From Chlorobaculum limnaeum (GTDB taxonomy: Bacteria > Bacteroidota > Chlorobiia > Chlorobiales > Chlorobiaceae), in NCBI RefSeq assembly GCF_001747405.1, contig NZ_CP017305.1, forward strand, positions 762,001 to 826,000: DNA of 64,000 bases, given 5' to 3'. The notes below the pieces were generated by a model that saw nothing but the letters and a program-made list of their open reading frames with translations, did not search any database and was not told where the DNA came from. Of this stretch, positions 5,954 to 57,913 are shown piece by piece (position 1 is the first letter of the stretch; every line of letters starts with the position of its first letter). The translations under genes were made by a program, and so were the position numbers.

Positions 5954-8755
5954 ATGAATCGTTACCACCCTTACTCTTCGGCTGTTGCCGGTTCGTTGCT
6001 GTTGCTGGCAACGGCTGCGCAACCGTCTGTCGCATCGGCTGCTGATTCGGCCACGCAAACATCGATACCCTCAACTTCGAGAAGCATCGTGGGTACGATT
6101 GTCGATAAAAACGACAAGCTCCCTCTGCCTGGCGTGGCCGTCAGGGTCAAAGGCACGTCGCTCGGCGCAGTCACCGATCAGTCTGGACGTTACAGAATCG
6201 ACAATATCGGTTCGGATTCAGTGGTGATTTCTGTTTCCTATATCGGTTATGTCGGCGAAGAATACCCGGTCTCCATGAACCGGCTGAAATCGGCCATCCT
6301 GAACATTTCGCTGACTCCCGGTCTCGTTGTCGGTCAGGAGATCGTTGTGGTCGGCGAACAGCTCAAGGGGCAGGCCAAGGCGATTAACCAGCAGATCAAA
6401 AGCGACAATATCACCAACGTCATCGCCGCTGACCAGATCGGCAAATTTCCTGACGACAACGCTGGCGACGCGCTCAAGAGAATTCCGGGCATCAGCGTGT
6501 TCAACGATCAGGGCGAAGCGCGGTTCATCCATATCCGCGGCACGGAACCGCGATTCAATTCGGTCATGATAAACGGCGAGCGGATTCCTTCCGCAGAGGC
6601 TGAAACCCGCACCGTGCAGCTCGATCTCGTGCCCGCCGACATGCTTCAGACCATCGAGGTCAACAAAACCCTCACTCCCGACATGGACGCCGACGCCATC
6701 GGCGGATCGGTCAACCTCATCACGATGGCGCCAAGTGAGAGGCGCATCTCGATCACGGCTGGCGGCGGCGCCAACCTGATCGAAGGTTCCGGCGGGCCAA
6801 GGTCGAAGTTCTCCGGCGTGTACGGTAACCGCTTCATGGATGGCAAACTCGGCGTCGTGGTGGCCGGATCGTATGAAGACAACCATTTCGGTTCAGACGA
6901 TATCGAAGCCGAATGGAAGCGCAGCGGGACGACCGGTCAGATAAATCTCGATTCACAGCAGGTTCGTACCTATGATATCGAGCGTCTCCGCAAGAGCTTG
7001 TCCACCACGCTCGATTACCGATTCAATGAAAACCACACCCTGAAATTCTCCGGCATTTCCAACTGGCGAAATGACTGGGAGCAACGTTACAGAACGACCT
7101 ATACCAGTTTGCTTGACGATGACAACAACTATCTGGACAAGGGCGAAATCCGGATGCAGAACAAGGGCGGTACCGACAAGGATGCCCGCCTCGAAGAGCA
7201 GCGAATGATGTCGTACTCACTCGGCGGCGAGCACCATTTCGGCAAGCTCGAAGTTGACTGGCAGGCAGCGTACTCGAAGGCTTCACAAGAAAAGCCGAAC
7301 GAGCGCTACATCGACATCAGGGAGAAGAAACAGCCCTTCACGGTCGATGTTTCCGATCCAGGTAAACCTCTGGTCATCATGGACGCCTCTTCGGGAATTG
7401 CTTCGGGAGGTGACTGGAAACTGAAATCACTGACCGAAGAGCACGAATACACCGAAGATATCGACAAGGCGTTTGGTCTCGATTTCAAGTACGATCTGGC
7501 GGACAGACTGAAGCTCAAAGCTGGCGGCAAGATCAGGTACAAGAAAAAGATGAGCGATAACGATTATTATGAATACACCCCCGTCGATGAGGATGCCTTC
7601 ATGAACGAGGTGTACAACCATCTGTACAGCCCGTCGAAAAAGCACTATCTCCCTGGCGATCAGTATGTTGTCGGCTCCTATGTTGATCCCGCATTTCTTG
7701 GCAACCTCGATCTGAACAATGCAGCGCTGTTCGACAAGGCGACCGCTCTGGCCGAACTGGCTGGCAATTACACGGCGAAGGAGGATGTCAAGGCGGCCTA
7801 CGGCATGATGACCTGGGATGCTACCGACAAGCTTCGGCTGATCGGCGGCGTGCGCATGGAACACACGAGTAACCAGTACGATGCGTTCGTTTACGATGCC
7901 GATGCTGATACCCTGACGCCGGTGCATGGCGCGCGCGAGGATTACACCAACGTGTTGCCACACCTCAGCCTGCGCTACAAGCTCGACAGCTTCACCAACG
8001 TCAGGCTCGCCTACACCCATTCGCTGGCGCGTCCCAACTATTTCGATCTCGCTCCGTACCGCCAGATACTGGCCGATGACGAGGAGATTTATGTCGGCAA
8101 TCCCTCGCTCAAGGCGACGCTGTCGAAGAACTTCGACATCATGATCGACCGGTACCTCGGTTCGGTCAGCCTGGTGTCGATCGGGTATTTCCACAAATCG
8201 ATTTCGGATTTCATTGTCACCCAAAAATCGACCGACCCCGTCACCAGCTATGAGCTCTACCAGCCGGTCAACGGTGGAGACGGCAGCATCAACGGTCTGG
8301 AAGCCTCGGCGCAGTTCCAGCTTCCGTTCCTCAAAGGGCTCGGCCTGTACCTGAACTACACCTACACCGGTTCGAAGATCAAACACTTCAACATCGAAGG
8401 GCGCGACGGCGACGACCTGCCGCTGCCGGGAAGCCCGAAGCACACCTTCAACACCTCGGTCTCCTACGAAACCGGGCCGCTCGGGTTGAGACTTTCAGGC
8501 AACTATCACAGTGACTTCATCGATTCGGAAGAGGGGGCCATCGGCGAGAACGCATGGGAAGACCGCTACTACGACAGTTCATTCACGCTCGATTTCAACG
8601 GCACCTACCGCTTCAGCAAACAGGCGCAGATGTTTTTCGAGATCAGCAATCTGACCAACCAGCCGATGCGTTTCTACCAGGGCGAAAAGAAGTATGTGGC
8701 CCAGGAAGAGTGGTACGACCGCCGTTTCATGCTCGGTTTGAAGATGGACTTCTGA
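5954..8755 (+). CDS. TonB-dependent receptor with carboxypeptidase-like regulatory domain
   Basis: 933 residues. A signal peptide (about 1-29, ending SVASA) is followed by a carboxypeptidase-regulatory-like beta-sandwich (GTIVDKNDKLPLPGVAVRVK, about 46-120). The plug domain contains DNAGDALKRIPGISV and IHIRGTEPRFNSVMINGERI, and a long outer-membrane beta-barrel ends in the terminal Phe of RRFMLGLKMDF. It should take up a large ligand across the outer membrane using TonB-ExbBD energy. The next gene encodes a beta-propeller phytase; receptor-phytase pairs are a known arrangement, so phytate or its breakdown products are a plausible ligand (inference). A stem-loop lies between the two genes. Confidence 0.93.
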   Translation: MNRYHPYSSAVAGSLLLLATAAQPSVASAADSATQTSIPSTSRSIVGTIVDKNDKLPLPGVAVRVKGTSLGAVTDQSGRYRIDNIGSDSVVISVSYIGYVGEEYPVSMNRLKSAILNISLTPGLVVGQEIVVVGEQLKGQAKAINQQIKSDNITNVIAADQIGKFPDDNAGDALKRIPGISVFNDQGEARFIHIRGTEPRFNSVMINGERIPSAEAETRTVQLDLVPADMLQTIEVNKTLTPDMDADAIGGSVNLITMAPSERRISITAGGGANLIEGSGGPRSKFSGVYGNRFMDGKLGVVVAGSYEDNHFGSDDIEAEWKRSGTTGQINLDSQQVRTYDIERLRKSLSTTLDYRFNENHTLKFSGISNWRNDWEQRYRTTYTSLLDDDNNYLDKGEIRMQNKGGTDKDARLEEQRMMSYSLGGEHHFGKLEVDWQAAYSKASQEKPNERYIDIREKKQPFTVDVSDPGKPLVIMDASSGIASGGDWKLKSLTEEHEYTEDIDKAFGLDFKYDLADRLKLKAGGKIRYKKKMSDNDYYEYTPVDEDAFMNEVYNHLYSPSKKHYLPGDQYVVGSYVDPAFLGNLDLNNAALFDKATALAELAGNYTAKEDVKAAYGMMTWDATDKLRLIGGVRMEHTSNQYDAFVYDADADTLTPVHGAREDYTNVLPHLSLRYKLDSFTNVRLAYTHSLARPNYFDLAPYRQILADDEEIYVGNPSLKATLSKNFDIMIDRYLGSVSLVSIGYFHKSISDFIVTQKSTDPVTSYELYQPVNGGDGSINGLEASAQFQLPFLKGLGLYLNYTYTGSKIKHFNIEGRDGDDLPLPGSPKHTFNTSVSYETGPLGLRLSGNYHSDFIDSEEGAIGENAWEDRYYDSSFTLDFNGTYRFSKQAQMFFEISNLTNQPMRFYQGEKKYVAQEEWYDRRFMLGLKMDF

Positions 8756-52219: not shown

Positions 52220-52527
52220 GGTGGATGATCGGTTCGGTGATGGAAACGGCACGCAACGCGCGCCGGAACGACGGAGAATATAGCAAAATAGGCTGGATGG
52301 CAAAACTGCGAGAGATGGGCGACGAGGCAGGTTGCGGGGCGCTGTTGGGGTGGTTCCTTTTCTGTCATTGCGAGGAGCGCAGCGACGTGGCAATCCAGTC
52401 GATTTGCTTGAAAATCAGGCGTAATCTTCGTACCTATAATCTGTAAGCCATACCGTCGGGTTTATTTTGTGCCCCTTTCAAGACGGTTCCTGTGCGATGA
52501 ACAGCAACCGTTTAGCAGTTTTTTGAA
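52220..52527. other. 308-bp gap upstream of bchF
   Basis: It contains the bchF promoter side, a dispersed repeat (52363-52398) and the start of the A+T-richer accessory segment from about 52430. No gene is seen. Confidence 0.55.
52363..52398. repeat. Dispersed repeat of the CATTGCGAGGAGCG type
   Basis: TGTCATTGCGAGGAGCGCAG followed by CGACGTGGCAATCCAG. I recognise this imperfect palindrome (CATTGCGAGG..GCAATC) as an intergenic repeat seen in many unrelated bacteria. Only one copy lies in this window. Confidence 0.7.
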
Positions 52528-55077
52528 ATGAACCTAGAAGCATGGTTTACTAATCGACCGCAGTGGCTCCAGATTGCAGTTACTCGGCTACTTCAGCAGC
52601 CCGAGCTTACCGACAAGGACGTCTCTGAGCTCGCAATTCTGTGCCAGCAGGAAGCTGCCGGAAAGTTGCCCAAAACAACTACTTCCTTTCCCTCTTCCGC
52701 GTTTCTCCAAAACGCTACAGGTAACTTGCGTTTGTGTTCAATCAGTGACGTCGAGGGAGTAAATGCCCTTGCGCCGAAAAAACCACTAGAGTTTGGTAAA
52801 AGCAATATCACGATTGTTTATGGCAACAACGGATCAGGCAAATCCGGTTACGTCAGACTCTTAAAGCATGTATGCGGTGCCCGTGAGATGGGCGCCCTTC
52901 ATCGCAATGTCTATAAACCTGTCTCTGCCATACAGAAAGCTTGCATTTCGTTTGAACAGGATGGCATTCCGAAAAGTCATACATGGTCAGGACAAGGCAT
53001 CTGCGATGACCTTAATAGCGTTGACATTTTCGACACCTCGTTTGGTAAGGTCTTTGTCAGTAGCGAAGATGAGGTGAGCTACGAGCCACCAGTGTTATCG
53101 TTTTTCAGCTCGCTTATCATTGTATGTGAAAAGGTTGCATCGGCTCTGGATGCCGAGGCCAACCGGCACCAGTCCAAAAAGCCGAATATTCCGGCTGACA
53201 AGAAAGTTACTCCAGAAGGCATCTGGTACGAAGACATTAGCGCCAAGACCACCACCCAGGACATCGACAAGCATTGCGCATTCGGTAGCACTGACGAGAT
53301 CGAGATGCAAACGCTGCAACAGCGCCTTGCTGAACAGGCACCGGCGGAAAAAGCGAAGGGGCTGAGAAAGCAGAAACAGCATATCGACACTCTGGTACAA
53401 GACGCACAAAAGCATCTGGATCAATTATCAGACGAGAATTACCGACGGATCATTGCAGCCAAAGAGAATTCGATCCTCAAGAAGGCAGCAGCAGATGCGG
53501 CGGCGGAAAAGGTGTTCTCCGGCAGCGAGTTGGCAGGCATCGGGTCTGATGTCTGGAAAGAACTTTGGGAAGCGGCCCGGAAATACTCTGTATCGGCTGC
53601 CTACAAAGAAGCCGTGTACCCGAATGTTTCTGATGGTTCCCGTTGTGTCTTGTGCCATCAAGCCTTGACCCAAGAGGCCAAGGAGCGGTTGATCTCCTTC
53701 GAAAATTTTGTGAAGGGTGAAATGCAGAAAGCGGCAACGGATGCGGCCAAGGAATATGAGGCCGCCAGTCAAACTATCGAGTCACTACCGACATTGGAGA
53801 CGCTGAGGATACGTATCGATGCGGCGGGCATTCCACAGAACGAGTTTGCCACCCATGTGATGGAATTCTTTGAACAATTGCAGGCAAGGATAAGCCAACT
53901 CCCTGAAATCGATTCTGAAGAAGCCATTCCCGACCCTCTGCTCTCACCGAAATGGATCGATGAAGCCAACGCCCAGTCGGAAAGCCTCGGTGAACTCGCG
54001 GAAAAATATGACGAAGACGCCAAAAGCGACAATCGAGAGGAGATCAAGAAGAAGCTAAACAGCTTACAGACCAGAAAGTGGTTGTCGGAGCACCGCGCTG
54101 CCATTGATGAAGAAGTCACCCGATTGAAGCTACTGAACCAGATTCAAGAAGCCAAGAAATCGGCCAACACAATGGCCCTGTCAAAGAAAAAAGGCGAATT
54201 GGCAGAGATATTGATCACAGAGGCCTTCGTGCAGAGGTTCGACGCAGAGCTAAAAACTCTTGGTGCATCACATTTAAAGGTTAAGCTAGTAAAAACAAGG
54301 GCTCCAAAGGGAAACGTCCTTCACCAAATCCAGCTTCGCGGTGCCTCTATGAATGGCCTTGCCGAAATCCTTAGCGAGGGAGAGAATCGGATCGTTTCTA
54401 TTGCGGCATTTTTGGCTGACGTCACCGGTAAAAGCAACCAGGCCCCGTTCATCTTCGACGATCCAATATCCTCGTTGGACCAAAGCTATGAAGAGGCTGT
54501 GGTTCAAAGGCTAATCGAGTTGTCTCAGGATAAGCAAGTCATTGTTTTTACTCACCGTCTATCCTTGATGGGACTAATCCAAGAGTACACAAAAAAAGTT
54601 GATCAAGACCCAGAAATCATCGGCATTCGGGCTGAAACATGGGGAACAGGGGAGCCTGGAGACACTCCACTCTTCGTTAAAAAACCCGATAAAGCCTTGA
54701 ACAGCCTCATTATTGATCGTCTTTCCAAAGCGACGAAGCTACTTCACGAGCATGGCAAAGATGCTTATGAGCCATATGCAAAGTCACTATGCAGTGATTT
54801 CAGGATTCTCCTTGAGAGAATGATCGAGTTTGAGCTTATGGCCGATGTCGTAGGCCGTTACCGCCGTGAAATCAATACCAAGGGAAAAATCCACAAGCTT
54901 GCTAAAATAAGCGAGTCTGATTGTCAGTATTTTGATGACCTCATGAGCAAGTATTCTAGATTTGAACACTCTCAACCAACAGAATCACCAGTAGAACTAC
55001 CGAGTCCACAGGATCTTTTAGCTGACATGACTGGGCTGAAAGAGTGGCGAGAGGAATACGCAAAACGAACGATCTAA
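52528..55077 (+). CDS. ABC/Rad50-like AAA ATPase with zinc-hook CxxC, defence candidate
   Basis: 849 residues. Walker A is VYGNNGSGKSGY (99-106). A long helical middle carries a hook-like RCVLCHQAL (Cys373, Cys376), as in Rad50 and RloC. The ABC signature LSEGENRIVSIA (about 615), Walker B FIFDDPISSLDQ (about 642) and H-loop VFTHRLSL (about 675) complete the nucleotide site. The C-terminal 150 residues are helical and contain DLMSKYSRFEHSQPTESP, a motif I recall in relatives. Proteins of this plan (RloC, PrrC-like, other overcoming-lysogenisation-type ATPases) act in phage defence; the role here is inferred. It is A+T-richer than the bch genes and stands alone. Confidence 0.8.
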   Translation: MNLEAWFTNRPQWLQIAVTRLLQQPELTDKDVSELAILCQQEAAGKLPKTTTSFPSSAFLQNATGNLRLCSISDVEGVNALAPKKPLEFGKSNITIVYGNNGSGKSGYVRLLKHVCGAREMGALHRNVYKPVSAIQKACISFEQDGIPKSHTWSGQGICDDLNSVDIFDTSFGKVFVSSEDEVSYEPPVLSFFSSLIIVCEKVASALDAEANRHQSKKPNIPADKKVTPEGIWYEDISAKTTTQDIDKHCAFGSTDEIEMQTLQQRLAEQAPAEKAKGLRKQKQHIDTLVQDAQKHLDQLSDENYRRIIAAKENSILKKAAADAAAEKVFSGSELAGIGSDVWKELWEAARKYSVSAAYKEAVYPNVSDGSRCVLCHQALTQEAKERLISFENFVKGEMQKAATDAAKEYEAASQTIESLPTLETLRIRIDAAGIPQNEFATHVMEFFEQLQARISQLPEIDSEEAIPDPLLSPKWIDEANAQSESLGELAEKYDEDAKSDNREEIKKKLNSLQTRKWLSEHRAAIDEEVTRLKLLNQIQEAKKSANTMALSKKKGELAEILITEAFVQRFDAELKTLGASHLKVKLVKTRAPKGNVLHQIQLRGASMNGLAEILSEGENRIVSIAAFLADVTGKSNQAPFIFDDPISSLDQSYEEAVVQRLIELSQDKQVIVFTHRLSLMGLIQEYTKKVDQDPEIIGIRAETWGTGEPGDTPLFVKKPDKALNSLIIDRLSKATKLLHEHGKDAYEPYAKSLCSDFRILLERMIEFELMADVVGRYRREINTKGKIHKLAKISESDCQYFDDLMSKYSRFEHSQPTESPVELPSPQDLLADMTGLKEWREEYAKRTI

Positions 55078-55111
55078 TATCGATTCCCCTGAGAACGTAA
55101 TTCACTAACCG

Positions 55112-55380
55112 TCACTTGTCACTACTTTTCACTTTCCAATCATACATATTCCCCAACGTCGCCAGCAGGCTTAGCTTTACATTCTCCACTCGCTTGTTGA
55201 ATCCCTCGAGTTCGGCGTAGTAATACAAAAAGGTTCGTGGCTGTTCGTTGCGAGAATTTGCTGGTACTCCTTCCAGAGTTTTGCCTGTTCGGCTTGCGGT
55301 AACGGGCCGGTCAGTTTGGAGACGACGAGGTCGAGGTCGGCGTTCCGGAAGGCTGAGGAGTTGAAAGGTTTTTTCTCGAA
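55112..55380 (-). pseudogene. 3'-end remnant of a peptide-binding lipoprotein gene
   Basis: On the minus strand it encodes FEKKPFNSSAFRNADLDLVV, KLTGPLPQAEQAKLWKEYQQ, then after a one-base deletion NEQPRTFLYYYAELEGFNKR and LATLGNMYDWKV. The same order, about 85% identical in DNA by eye, closes the intact gene 56222-57913. It has no start and stops abruptly at 55380, where similarity ends sharply. Confidence 0.85.
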
Positions 55381-55416
55381 TCTTATGCACCGATGATACG
55401 GCTTTACCATCAGAAC

Positions 55417-55743
55417 TCACACGATTTCTTCCTGATTCGAGTTCAATTTGATCGGCGTGATGCGCTGAAGAATCGATTCCTCTTTTTTTGTCGCATCATA
55501 AAGGTCAGCGCGTATCTGGAGGTTCATCCAGAAATCGGGGGTATTGCCGAAATATTTTGCCAGACGCAGTGCGGTCGAGCTTGTGATGCCGCGCTTGCCG
55601 TTGATGATTTCGTTGATTCGCTGGTAGGGCACCTGAATGGCGTCGGCCAGTTGGCGCTGCGTAATGTTCATCGGAATGAGAAACTCTTCGAGCAGCAACT
55701 CTCCGGGATGCGTTGGTTCGCGGTCTGTTGGAATGCGTATCAT
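55417..55743 (-). CDS. HigA-type antitoxin
   Basis: 108 residues. HPGELLLEEFLIPMNITQRQ, LADAIQVPYQRINEIINGKR and LAKYFGNTPDFWMNLQ are the typical XRE/HigA signature: a helix-turn-helix antitoxin that binds its own promoter and neutralises HigB. It follows the toxin gene by 16 bp, in the toxin-first order usual for higBA, so the two are co-transcribed and autoregulated. Confidence 0.92.
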   Translation of the reverse strand: MIRIPTDREPTHPGELLLEEFLIPMNITQRQLADAIQVPYQRINEIINGKRGITSSTALRLAKYFGNTPDFWMNLQIRADLYDATKKEESILQRITPIKLNSNQEEIV

Positions 55744-55759
55744 GTTCTGGTTGCTTTTA

Positions 55760-56053
55760 TCAATGATAATCCACTATTTCTACCTCGGCAGGGCCTGATG
55801 CAGTCCAGAGAAAACAGATTCTGTATTGCTGGTTAATCCTGATGCTGAACTGACCAGCCCGATCACCCGACAGTGCTTCGAGATGATTGCCCGGCGGAAT
55901 TCGCAACTCTTCAAGCATTAGTACCGAGTCGAGCTGATCCAACTTTCTTTGCGCGGTTCTCCACAGATCAACGGGGCATATTTTCAGAGCGGCCTTTGTC
56001 TGTTTGCCATTGAAAATCGCTTCGGTCTCGCCGTTCTTGAATGATTGTATCAC
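55760..56053 (-). CDS. HigB/RelE-type mRNA-interferase toxin
   Basis: 97 residues from a GTG. MIQSFKNGETEAIFNGKQTK is the usual start, followed by AQRKLDQLDSVLMLEELRIP, PGNHLEALSGDRAGQFSIRI and NQQYRICFLW, the RelE-fold residues including the Arg pair that contact mRNA in the ribosome A site. It is normally neutralised by the adjacent HigA. Length and motifs are intact, so the module is probably functional. Confidence 0.92.
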   Translation of the reverse strand: MIQSFKNGETEAIFNGKQTKAALKICPVDLWRTAQRKLDQLDSVLMLEELRIPPGNHLEALSGDRAGQFSIRINQQYRICFLWTASGPAEVEIVDYH

Positions 56054-56171
56054 GATAACACGGTTGTCATGTTATTTGTTGCGATATCTGAAAAGATTTT
56101 ATGACGAGCAAGACAGAGCTGGGGGTCTTGACTCTGAAGCGGAAAATGGTTCTGCAAACGGCTAACAGTAG

Positions 56172-56195
56172 AGGGCAGCCGCGAGGGCTGCCCCT
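56172..56195. repeat. REP-like element upstream of higB
   Basis: GGGCAGCC pairs with GGCTGCCC around GCGAG, continuing into CCTAC. This is the dispersed palindrome in inverted orientation. It could also help terminate transcription between the lipoprotein gene and higBA. Confidence 0.55.
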
Positions 56196-56221
56196 ACGAA
56201 ACAATTATCAACTATCCATTA

Positions 56222-57913
56222 TCAATTGTCAACTGACTTCACTTTCCAATCATACATATTCCCCAACGTCGCCAGCAGGCTGAGCTTCACATTCTTTACC
56301 CGTTCGTTGAATCCTTCAAGCTCTGCATAATAATACAGGAAGGTTCGCGGCTGTTCATTGGCGAGAATTTGCTGGTACTCTTTCCAGAGTTTTGCCTGTT
56401 CGGCTTGCGGCAGTGGGCCGGTGAGTTTGGCGACGACGCGGTCGAGGTCGGTGTTCTGGAAGGCTGAGGAGTTGAAGGGCTTTTTCTCGAAGTCCGATCC
56501 CCAGATGACGAGCTGGAAGGGGAGCGTTTCGGCGGCCATTCCTGAGAGGGCGGCGTCGTAGCGGTACTGGTTCTGGTTCTTGTTGAACATGAGTGACTCG
56601 TCGAAGCGCAGGCGGCAGTCGATGCCGATTTCGCGGAGGTTCTGCTGGATGATGTTGGCCGCGTAGTTGCGCCTCGGGTTGCCGGTCGGGGCGGCGAGTT
56701 CGAACGAGAACTTCAGGCCGTTCTTCTGCAAGATGCCGTCCGGCCCCGGCGTCCAGCCAGCCTCCTTCAGCAGGGCGAGCGCCTTTCCGGGATCGTACCC
56801 GTAGGCGGGCAGCGACCGGTCGATGATCGAGGTGTAGGCGGGCGAGAGCGTGGTGTTGACGATGGTGGCGTAATCCGGTCCCATGAAGCCGTCGATGATC
56901 GCCTGCCGGTCGATGGCATACGTCATCGCCTGCCGAACGCGGCGGTCGCCGAAAAAGCGGTTCGGCGCGATCCGCTTGCCGTTGCGCCACGCTTCGCCGT
57001 CGATGTTCAGCCACACGACGCTGTCGAAATAGCGGTCGGCCACCGGGATGATCGAAATATCAGGGTTGCTCCGCGCCATCTCCACGGCGTCTTTCGGATT
57101 GATGCCGCCCGCCGAGACGAGCGCGTCGATCTGCCCAGACTTGAGCATCGCCAGGCGCGTCGTGTACTCCGGCACCACCATGAAGGTCACGGCGGGCGTC
57201 GCCGCCGGATGGGGCAGAACCGAGGTTGGGCTGGAAACGAGCGTCAGCTTCGACTGGCGTTGCCACTCCTTGAGCTTGAACGGGCCGGTGCCGACGACCG
57301 GTAGGGTGGCCGCCCGCTGGCGAATCTCGGTGGCGGGGATCGAGCGGAAGAGGTGCTCGGCGACCGGCATCAGGTCGTTGAAGTGATCGAGCACGATGCT
57401 CTCCGACATCGGCTTGTTGAAGCGCAGCACGAGCGTCTTGTCGTCCGGCGTCTCAACCGCCCTGTCGAAATCGACCGAACCGTCCGGCTTGAGGAGCAGG
57501 TCGTTGAGGTAGTCCTGTCGGCTGCTCGCCACGGCGGGGTCGGCGTAGAGGCGGTACGAATAGCTGAAATCCTTTGAGGTGAGCGGCTTGCCATCCTCCC
57601 AGACTGCATCGTGTTTGAGGTGAAAGGTGACGCTCCGCCCGTCCGGCGCAAACTCCCAGCGCTCGGCGGCGTTCGGTTGGTAGGAGATCGCGCCGATTTT
57701 CTCGTCGAACGACGGCCTGACCAGCGACGGATAGATCATCGTGCACACCTCGCGGGCGAGCGACATCTGGATGAGCAGCGGATTGAGATGGTCGAAATCG
57801 GCGGAGAGCGCCACCACGATGGTGTCGGGATGCTTGTTCTGCGATTTCGGCCCGCAGCCCGCGAACAGCGTCACGAAGAGGAGGGCGGCGATGGCGAGCA
57901 GGGATTTGCGCAT
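56222..57913 (-). CDS. Peptide/oligopeptide ABC transporter substrate-binding lipoprotein
   Basis: 563 residues from the ATG at 57913 (MRKSLLAIAALLFVTLFAGC), with a lipobox at LFAGC. SBP family 5 features: LVRPSFDEKIGAISYQPNAA (A.. W.), VTFHLKHDAVWEDGKPLTSK (the conserved FxLR...W.DG.P.T..D), AMTYAIDRQAIIDGFMGPDY and EAGWTPGPDG. It should bind peptides, nickel or similar ligands at the periplasmic face of the inner membrane. No ABC permease or ATPase genes adjoin. Its 3' end is copied as the remnant at 55.1-55.4 kb. bshB1-like lies 41 bp upstream on the same strand. Confidence 0.9.
   Translation of the reverse strand: MRKSLLAIAALLFVTLFAGCGPKSQNKHPDTIVVALSADFDHLNPLLIQMSLAREVCTMIYPSLVRPSFDEKIGAISYQPNAAERWEFAPDGRSVTFHLKHDAVWEDGKPLTSKDFSYSYRLYADPAVASSRQDYLNDLLLKPDGSVDFDRAVETPDDKTLVLRFNKPMSESIVLDHFNDLMPVAEHLFRSIPATEIRQRAATLPVVGTGPFKLKEWQRQSKLTLVSSPTSVLPHPAATPAVTFMVVPEYTTRLAMLKSGQIDALVSAGGINPKDAVEMARSNPDISIIPVADRYFDSVVWLNIDGEAWRNGKRIAPNRFFGDRRVRQAMTYAIDRQAIIDGFMGPDYATIVNTTLSPAYTSIIDRSLPAYGYDPGKALALLKEAGWTPGPDGILQKNGLKFSFELAAPTGNPRRNYAANIIQQNLREIGIDCRLRFDESLMFNKNQNQYRYDAALSGMAAETLPFQLVIWGSDFEKKPFNSSAFQNTDLDRVVAKLTGPLPQAEQAKLWKEYQQILANEQPRTFLYYYAELEGFNERVKNVKLSLLATLGNMYDWKVKSVDN

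Follow-up and report, generated by a model that had tools for sequence, protein, structure and literature searches.

A solitary RloC-like zinc-hook ATPase of Chlorobaculum limnaeum: a probable defence gene whose relatives exchange their C-terminal domain

Introduction

Among the described systems closest to the gene treated here is RloC, a protein held latent by its ATPase and zinc hook, whose tRNA cutting is activated by linear DNA or by DNA breaks (PMC2610378, PMC3874168). The triad of RloC consists of R692, E696, and H737, and that of PrrC of R320, E324, and H356; in fact, alanine at any of the RloC triad residues abolished activity (PMC2610378). Proteins of this kind have also entered the defence databases. 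In a survey, PDC-S06 figures as an unpublished single-gene candidate, and the same proteins are named differently by PADLOC (PDC-S06) and DefenseFinder (PMC11811056).

Here, a window of 64,000 nucleotides from the genome of Chlorobaculum limnaeum (NZ_CP017305.1, positions 762,001 to 826,000) is analysed. An earlier note, made from its sequence alone, had pointed to a zinc-hook ABC ATPase as a candidate single-gene anti-phage system. The candidate is not of a new kind, since the defence databases already list its family. Judged by its sequence and that of its relatives, the window gene is real, and is probably a functional defence gene of this catalogued kind. The main new result, which escaped the single-genome reading, is the exchange of a C-terminal cassette among related proteins.

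The ATPase and its family

The features of the locus are collected in Table 1. The PADLOC profile PDLC04893 of PDC-S06 matches residues 2-848 of the protein with 1094 bits, and a second PDC-S06 profile, PDLC04891, gives a full-length match with 573 bits. In the matches obtained, this label spans at least two branches, a short one of about 727-790 aa (RloC-type) and a long one of about 843-862 aa; the window ATPase belongs to the latter, distinct from the branch of RloC proper. Short-branch proteins occur in sister Chlorobiaceae (loci L127 and L129, the second followed by a Fic-like gene), and their CPFC hooks and R-x3-E...SH triads are RloC-type.

Table 1. Features of the ATPase locus, in window coordinates
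Feature	Position	Strand	Basis or remark
RloC-like zinc-hook ABC ATPase, 849 aa	52528..55077	+	ORF; PDLC04893; Pfam AAA_13
N-terminal extension, residues 1-80	52528..52767	+	long branch only; without Pfam match
Walker A GNNGSGKSG, residues 99-107	52822..52848	+	G, N, G, G, K invariant (54 relatives)
Zinc-hook motif CVLC, residues 373-376	53644..53655	+	both Cys 57/57
ABC signature LSEGE, residues 615-619	54370..54384	+	alignment of relatives
Walker B and D-loop FDDPISSLD, residues 643-651	54454..54480	+	alignment of relatives
Switch (H-loop) His676	54553..54555	+	57/57
Exchangeable cassette, about residues 683-806, class A in the window copy	54574..54945	+	DNA identity, trees, breakpoint scan
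C-terminal helical domain, residues 687-849, proposed HEPN-like RNase	54586..55074	+	AlphaFold2
R759-x3-E763, proposed catalytic pair	54802..54816	+	57/57 each
R777, invariant	54856..54858	+	57/57
H814, proposed catalytic His	54967..54969	+	56/56
oppA 3'-end partial duplicate	55128..55380	-	88.6% identical to 56238-56491
HigA antitoxin, separate acquisition	55417..55743	-	TIGR02607 5e-32
HigB toxin, separate acquisition	55760..56053	-	PF05015 5e-14

The ABC-type ATPase and the CxxC hook read from the sequence are both borne out, since the open reading frame holds the complete motif set (Lys105 lies in Walker A, FDDP occupies residues 643-646 and SSLD residues 648-651), and all motifs of the ATPase and the hook show little or no variation among 57-59 long-branch relatives, down to about 24% identity. 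In the N-terminal extension, W13 is invariant and W6 and A17 are nearly invariant in the long-branch alignment. The dN/dS of the core is 0.13, which indicates that the protein is under constraint (purifying selection). In Pfam, the protein matches AAA_13 (1.6e-18), and in NCBIfam it gives ABC-type matches only, all sub-threshold. A sequence search of the PDB returned SMC, Rad50, AriA, and ABC heads only, and nothing for the C-terminus.

The RloC-like plan proposed in the earlier note is upheld by the full-length PDC-S06 match and by the strong similarity of the core, ATPase and hook together, to RloC-type cores (hhalign 99.5%, E 5e-23). In the comparisons proposed with PrrC and OLD/PARIS-like ATPases, the PrrC profile matches the window protein in the Walker B stretch only (E 0.003) and the OLD/PARIS matches are weak. 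PrrC-profile matches in relatives are likewise weak or partial, and were used solely to find RloC-type proteins.

A foreign gene in the bchF-oppA slot

The A+T-rich composition noticed earlier is real: the ATPase gene has a G+C content of 48.5% (52.5% at third positions), as against 61-63% (80-85%) in the nearby bchX, bchC, oppA, PIG-L, and typA. The ATPase has a single copy in the window genome (G000; one contig, 2.80 Mb), is scattered in the family (present in 5 of 37 genomes), and is 79-84% identical to proteins of other phyla. It stands solitary between bchF and oppA (the flanking gaps span 52349-52527 and 55078-56221), with no R-M or BREX partner alongside; in nine relatives bchF and oppA are adjacent and the slot is empty (39-460 bp). 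Weak SMC_N and Rad50-type matches would fit a housekeeping SMC/SbcC-like DNA repair ATPase present there by chance. Against it stand the sporadic occurrence, the foreign composition, the empty site in relatives, the high identity to other phyla, and the SbcD-SbcC pair that the genome has of its own. A clear match to a housekeeping repair family, named in the earlier note as counterevidence, was looked for and not found. This explanation was rejected on the distribution of the gene and is left with very little probability.

The HigBA pair reported beside the ATPase is also real, both genes being recognised by their profiles. The two do not form one defence island, as had been proposed, because each occurs without the other in relatives: the slot of the relative G017 holds the same ATPase without HigBA, and in G015, G010, and G009 the ATPase is missing but HigBA (or HigB) is there. 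A joint arrival of HigBA and the ATPase in one event was thus rejected. In the window genome the order is ATPase, an oppA 3' duplicate of about 250 bp, HigBA, and intact oppA, and the duplicate stands immediately after the ATPase, a place taken in G017 by intact oppA. This order, together with the G017 slot, indicates that HigBA arrived on its own, the probable route being recombination with a G015-like HigBA-oppA allele. The slots of G015 and G010 contain HigBA and a membrane-protein-like ORF, and that of G012 another ORF.

Other observations concern the slot itself. The bchF-oppA gap is a site of variable cargo in Chlorobiaceae (L093-L104, L116, L119, L123-L125), and in other genomes a CBASS operon, an SPFH protein, or a 431-aa protein of unknown function abuts the same oppA end. 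For example, in G001 (L125:6268-9503) a complete CBASS operon (cyclase, HORMA, TRIP13, and NucC) abuts the oppA 3' end, next to bchI-bchD. Fragments of the oppA 3' end also occur elsewhere in relatives (G009 C27, G001 C16, G011 C59 and C5), and their scatter hints at a recurrent recombination product. Finally, a short CATTGCGAGGAGCG...GACGTGGCAATCC sequence 5' of the ATPase (52366-52400) also occurs in the bchF upstream region of sister species.

Neighbourhoods of the relatives

The company kept by the relatives could not be seen from a single genome. The survey covered 60 neighbouring proteins at 18 close loci (58-84% identity, several phyla), and found 8 SbcD, 6 SbcC, 4 BrxL, 4 HsdR, 3 HsdM, 2 PglX, and 2 PglZ. 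Typical orders are PglX-PglZ-BrxL-ATPase-SbcD-SbcC in Desulfobulbus (L003) and hsdM-hsdS-ATPase-hsdR at L007, and in the Chlorobiaceae genomes G035 (L012) and G030 the ATPase lies between hsdS and hsdR; type I hsd linkage is present in the relatives L007, L012, L131, and G030. The ATPase has R-M, BREX, CBASS, Abi, or TA genes at its side on all of five plasmids (5/5), as against 0/5 for control stretches of the same plasmids. Matches to the ATPase were found neither in phage records nor in E. coli. That BREX, type I R-M, and SbcDC recur near the ATPase suggests a guarding role for it over DNA-degrading defences, and the single-gene defence role proposed from the window is supported as likely by the PDC-S06 match and by the relatives in BREX and type I R-M loci.

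An RloC-like RNase could also be kept mainly as a stress or addiction gene, for DNA-damage persistence or for the stability of plasmids and islands, and not for phage defence. This would agree with the response of RloC to DNA breaks without phage (PMC3874168), with the TA and SOS genes often found near the plasmid relatives, and with the solitary state of the window gene. We regard it as quite improbable, given that relatives repeatedly lie embedded in BREX and type I R-M loci and that CBASS genes adjoin the same oppA end in a related species.

With regard to SbcDC, SbcD, mostly with SbcC, lies directly 3' of the RloC-like gene at L003-L006, L013, L014, L016, and L132; several of these SbcD-linked loci have BREX upstream, a conserved defence gene cassette in distant phyla. 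No prior report of an association of BREX, SbcCD, and RloC was recognised in a literature search that covered subscription papers and preprints thinly. On a Caulobacter plasmid (L170), an RloC-type short-branch gene lies near an SbcD/SbcC-like pair, and the SbcDC association may therefore predate the long branch. The SbcD-SbcC pair of the window genome is unlinked to the ATPase, and is 53% and 43% identical to the partners found in relatives. The sole HsdM-like match in this genome is partial and contains an in-frame TGA (L187 about 7753-8487, minus strand; C1 about 1381749-1382486), so that the closest type I R-M locus may be defective.

The C-terminal domain

The C-terminus had been described as helical, with the motif YSRFEHSQ (residues 809-816) as a possible nuclease active site. 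An AlphaFold2 model of residues 687-849, from 33 diverse sequences, gives a confident helical bundle (pLDDT 87.5, pTM 0.75), in which one helix bears both R759 and E763 and a second has H814 at its end; a full-length model from 16 close sequences was poor (pLDDT 65, pTM 0.38) and was set aside. The proposed active site stood in part. H814 is invariant, but position 811 is R in 11 of 56 relatives and position 813 is E in 37 of 56, so that SRFEH was right for the histidine alone, and the invariant set is instead R759-x3-E763, R777, and H814. As a pattern of residues, R759, E763, and H814 is that of the RloC/PrrC triad, in the same order as the mutagenised triads, with an R-to-H spacing of 53-56 in the long branch and 41-46 in RloC-type relatives.

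Comparisons of profile and fold were less telling. The C-terminal profile is not above a shuffled-column control against RloC-type C-termini (hhalign 0.31%). A Foldseek search of the PDB with the C-terminal model gave the HEPN protein 2hsb as best match, but with E 0.4, and VIA-align placed several HEPN proteins at Z 7-8 among unrelated bundles scoring equally. The structure prediction proposed earlier has thus yielded the helical bundle, but the fold searches do not single out HEPN. With no sequence similarity to RloC-type C-termini above that control, and fold searches of this kind, the likeness of the triad could be coincidental; the case for a putative HEPN RNase rests on the invariant triad and the architecture.

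Exchange of the C-terminal cassette

The window genome and G017 carry the ATPase at identical insertion junctions, and their core DNA (residues 1-680) is 86.1% identical. Over residues 691-810 the identity is 52.4%, and it recovers at about residue 811; over these same residues, the G017 gene is 95.5% identical to that of Desulfobulbus (L003), which belongs to another phylum. Of the 82 pairs whose cores share 80% identity or more, which have members in common and are not independent counts, 36 have a cassette identity below 60%, 42 reach 75% or more, and 4 fall in between. Segments of 116 residues that lie wholly before residue 726 never fall below 60% in any pair, and every 116-residue segment covering the cassette does so in 44-45% of pairs.

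Trees lead to the same result. In the cassette tree, a branch with 100/100 support divides classes A and B, and holding the near-identical-core set together is rejected (p-AU 6e-5); on the core tree, four changes are required to account for class A, and a topology that unites its members is rejected (p-AU 0.003). A breakpoint scan of the window copy places the exchanged stretch at residues 657-804 (chi-square 117, as against at most 16 in 100 shuffles). For most of its length, the G017 core resembles L003 more closely than it does the window copy, which indicates that exchange is not confined to the cassette; the comparison gives exchange and not the direction of a swap. A chimeric assembly is unlikely, because the window copy and G017 both lie on complete single contigs. 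Read from these alignments and trees, the C-terminal domain, which probably cuts RNA, is exchanged wholesale between otherwise near-identical proteins.

A binding or adaptor role for the C-terminus would leave the architecture of a defence ATPase unchanged, with a domain that docks, for example, SbcDC, BREX, or R-M subunits, and with SbcDC as the effector nuclease. The SbcD and SbcC genes that immediately follow the ATPase gene in close relatives (8 and 6, respectively, among the neighbouring proteins of the 18 loci) are in line with it, as are the lack of a significant sequence or fold match of the C-terminus to HEPN and the greater variability of this domain relative to the core. Nevertheless, the four invariant residues (R, E, R, and H) look catalytic, the cassette class does not track partner genes (both classes adjoin hsd genes and SbcDC), and neither hsd nor SbcDC adjoins the window copy; we consider an adaptor unlikely.

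Under the reading of the cassette as an effector, its exchange may let the system change target. A broader idea, which we put forward tentatively as somewhat less likely than not, is that hook ATPases constitute a family that guards BREX, type I R-M, and SbcDC, transfers broadly, and has an exchangeable C-terminal RNase cassette. Homologous recombination in the conserved flanks (H-loop; KYSxFEHSQP) would replace one nuclease class by another in situ, so that the RNA target changes or phage antidotes are evaded, in a manner comparable to the swapping of HsdS target domains. Viral contigs, scanned once with the B-class cassette and once with the core, yielded no clear new combination of core and cassette (one partial 51% match, L194), and a Gammaproteobacteria sample had the ATPase in 3 of 369 genomes, the seed genome included, too few for further cassette classes. 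No prior report of such swapping of effector domains was recognised in the literature, of which subscription papers and preprints were thinly covered, so that absence is unproven. If the cassette is a nuclease, these proteins are of significance as a natural domain-swap experiment, in which sensors about 90% identical carry two quite different C-terminal classes. Comparison of the classes would then show directly if tRNA specificity resides in the C-terminus, and if a swap can overcome phage tRNAs or RNA repair.

Proposed mode of action

The explanation that we favour, and hold to be reasonably probable, is a stand-alone anti-phage RNase of the abortive-infection type that works like RloC and has a recombining effector cassette. 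For its parts we infer HEPN chemistry, a tRNA target, a DNA-end trigger, and phage protection. The two ABC half-heads and the coiled coil with its zinc hook would form a Rad50-like sensor, which at rest would keep the C-terminal helical domain inactive. Phage attack would yield DNA ends or altered DNA complexes and lead to ATP binding or hydrolysis; the C-terminal domain, with R759, E763, and H814, would then cut RNA, most likely tRNA, and translation would stop. In the relatives, the ATPase may back up BREX or type I restriction and adjoins SbcDC, and the long branch would thus monitor DNA attack while restriction, BREX, or SbcDC works or fails. The window copy would be a solitary derivative, which could at most use the unlinked SbcDC of its own genome. 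Recombination of the cassette as a unit might retarget the nuclease or allow escape from phage counter-measures. The literature searched holds no activity, toxicity, or phage assay on the long branch.

Comparison with known systems

Within PDC-S06 itself, the C-terminal domains of the short and long branches have no detectable sequence similarity. PARIS AriA and the OLD ATPases resemble the window protein through weak ABC-type matches, but it has a long coiled coil with a hook instead of a TOPRIM domain; no TOPRIM family is among the Pfam, PADLOC, or NCBIfam matches listed for it, and its neighbours are BchF, HigA, HigB, and OppA. SbcC/Rad50 share with it the head, the coiled coil, and the zinc hook; on the other hand, the window protein has an extra C-terminal domain and a sporadic distribution, and no SbcD/Mre11 partner adjoins it. 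PrrC, associated with EcoprrI, also combines an ABC ATPase with an R/E/H C-terminus, and relatives of the window protein are embedded between hsdS and hsdR (L012/G035, G030, and L007). However, PrrC does not have the hook insert that the window protein has, and in the window bch and oppA genes flank the ATPase, with no hsd genes linked. Finally, RloC of Geobacillus kaustophilus and Acinetobacter baylyi differs from the window protein in that the latter has an extra N-terminal extension of 80 residues, an R-to-H spacing of 55 (45 in GkaRloC), and a C-terminal sequence unrelated at the profile level. The likeness to RloC lies in an ABC ATPase divided by a coiled coil with a CxxC hook, in a C-terminal R-x3-E ... 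H triad (as a pattern only), and in a mostly solitary, mobile gene.
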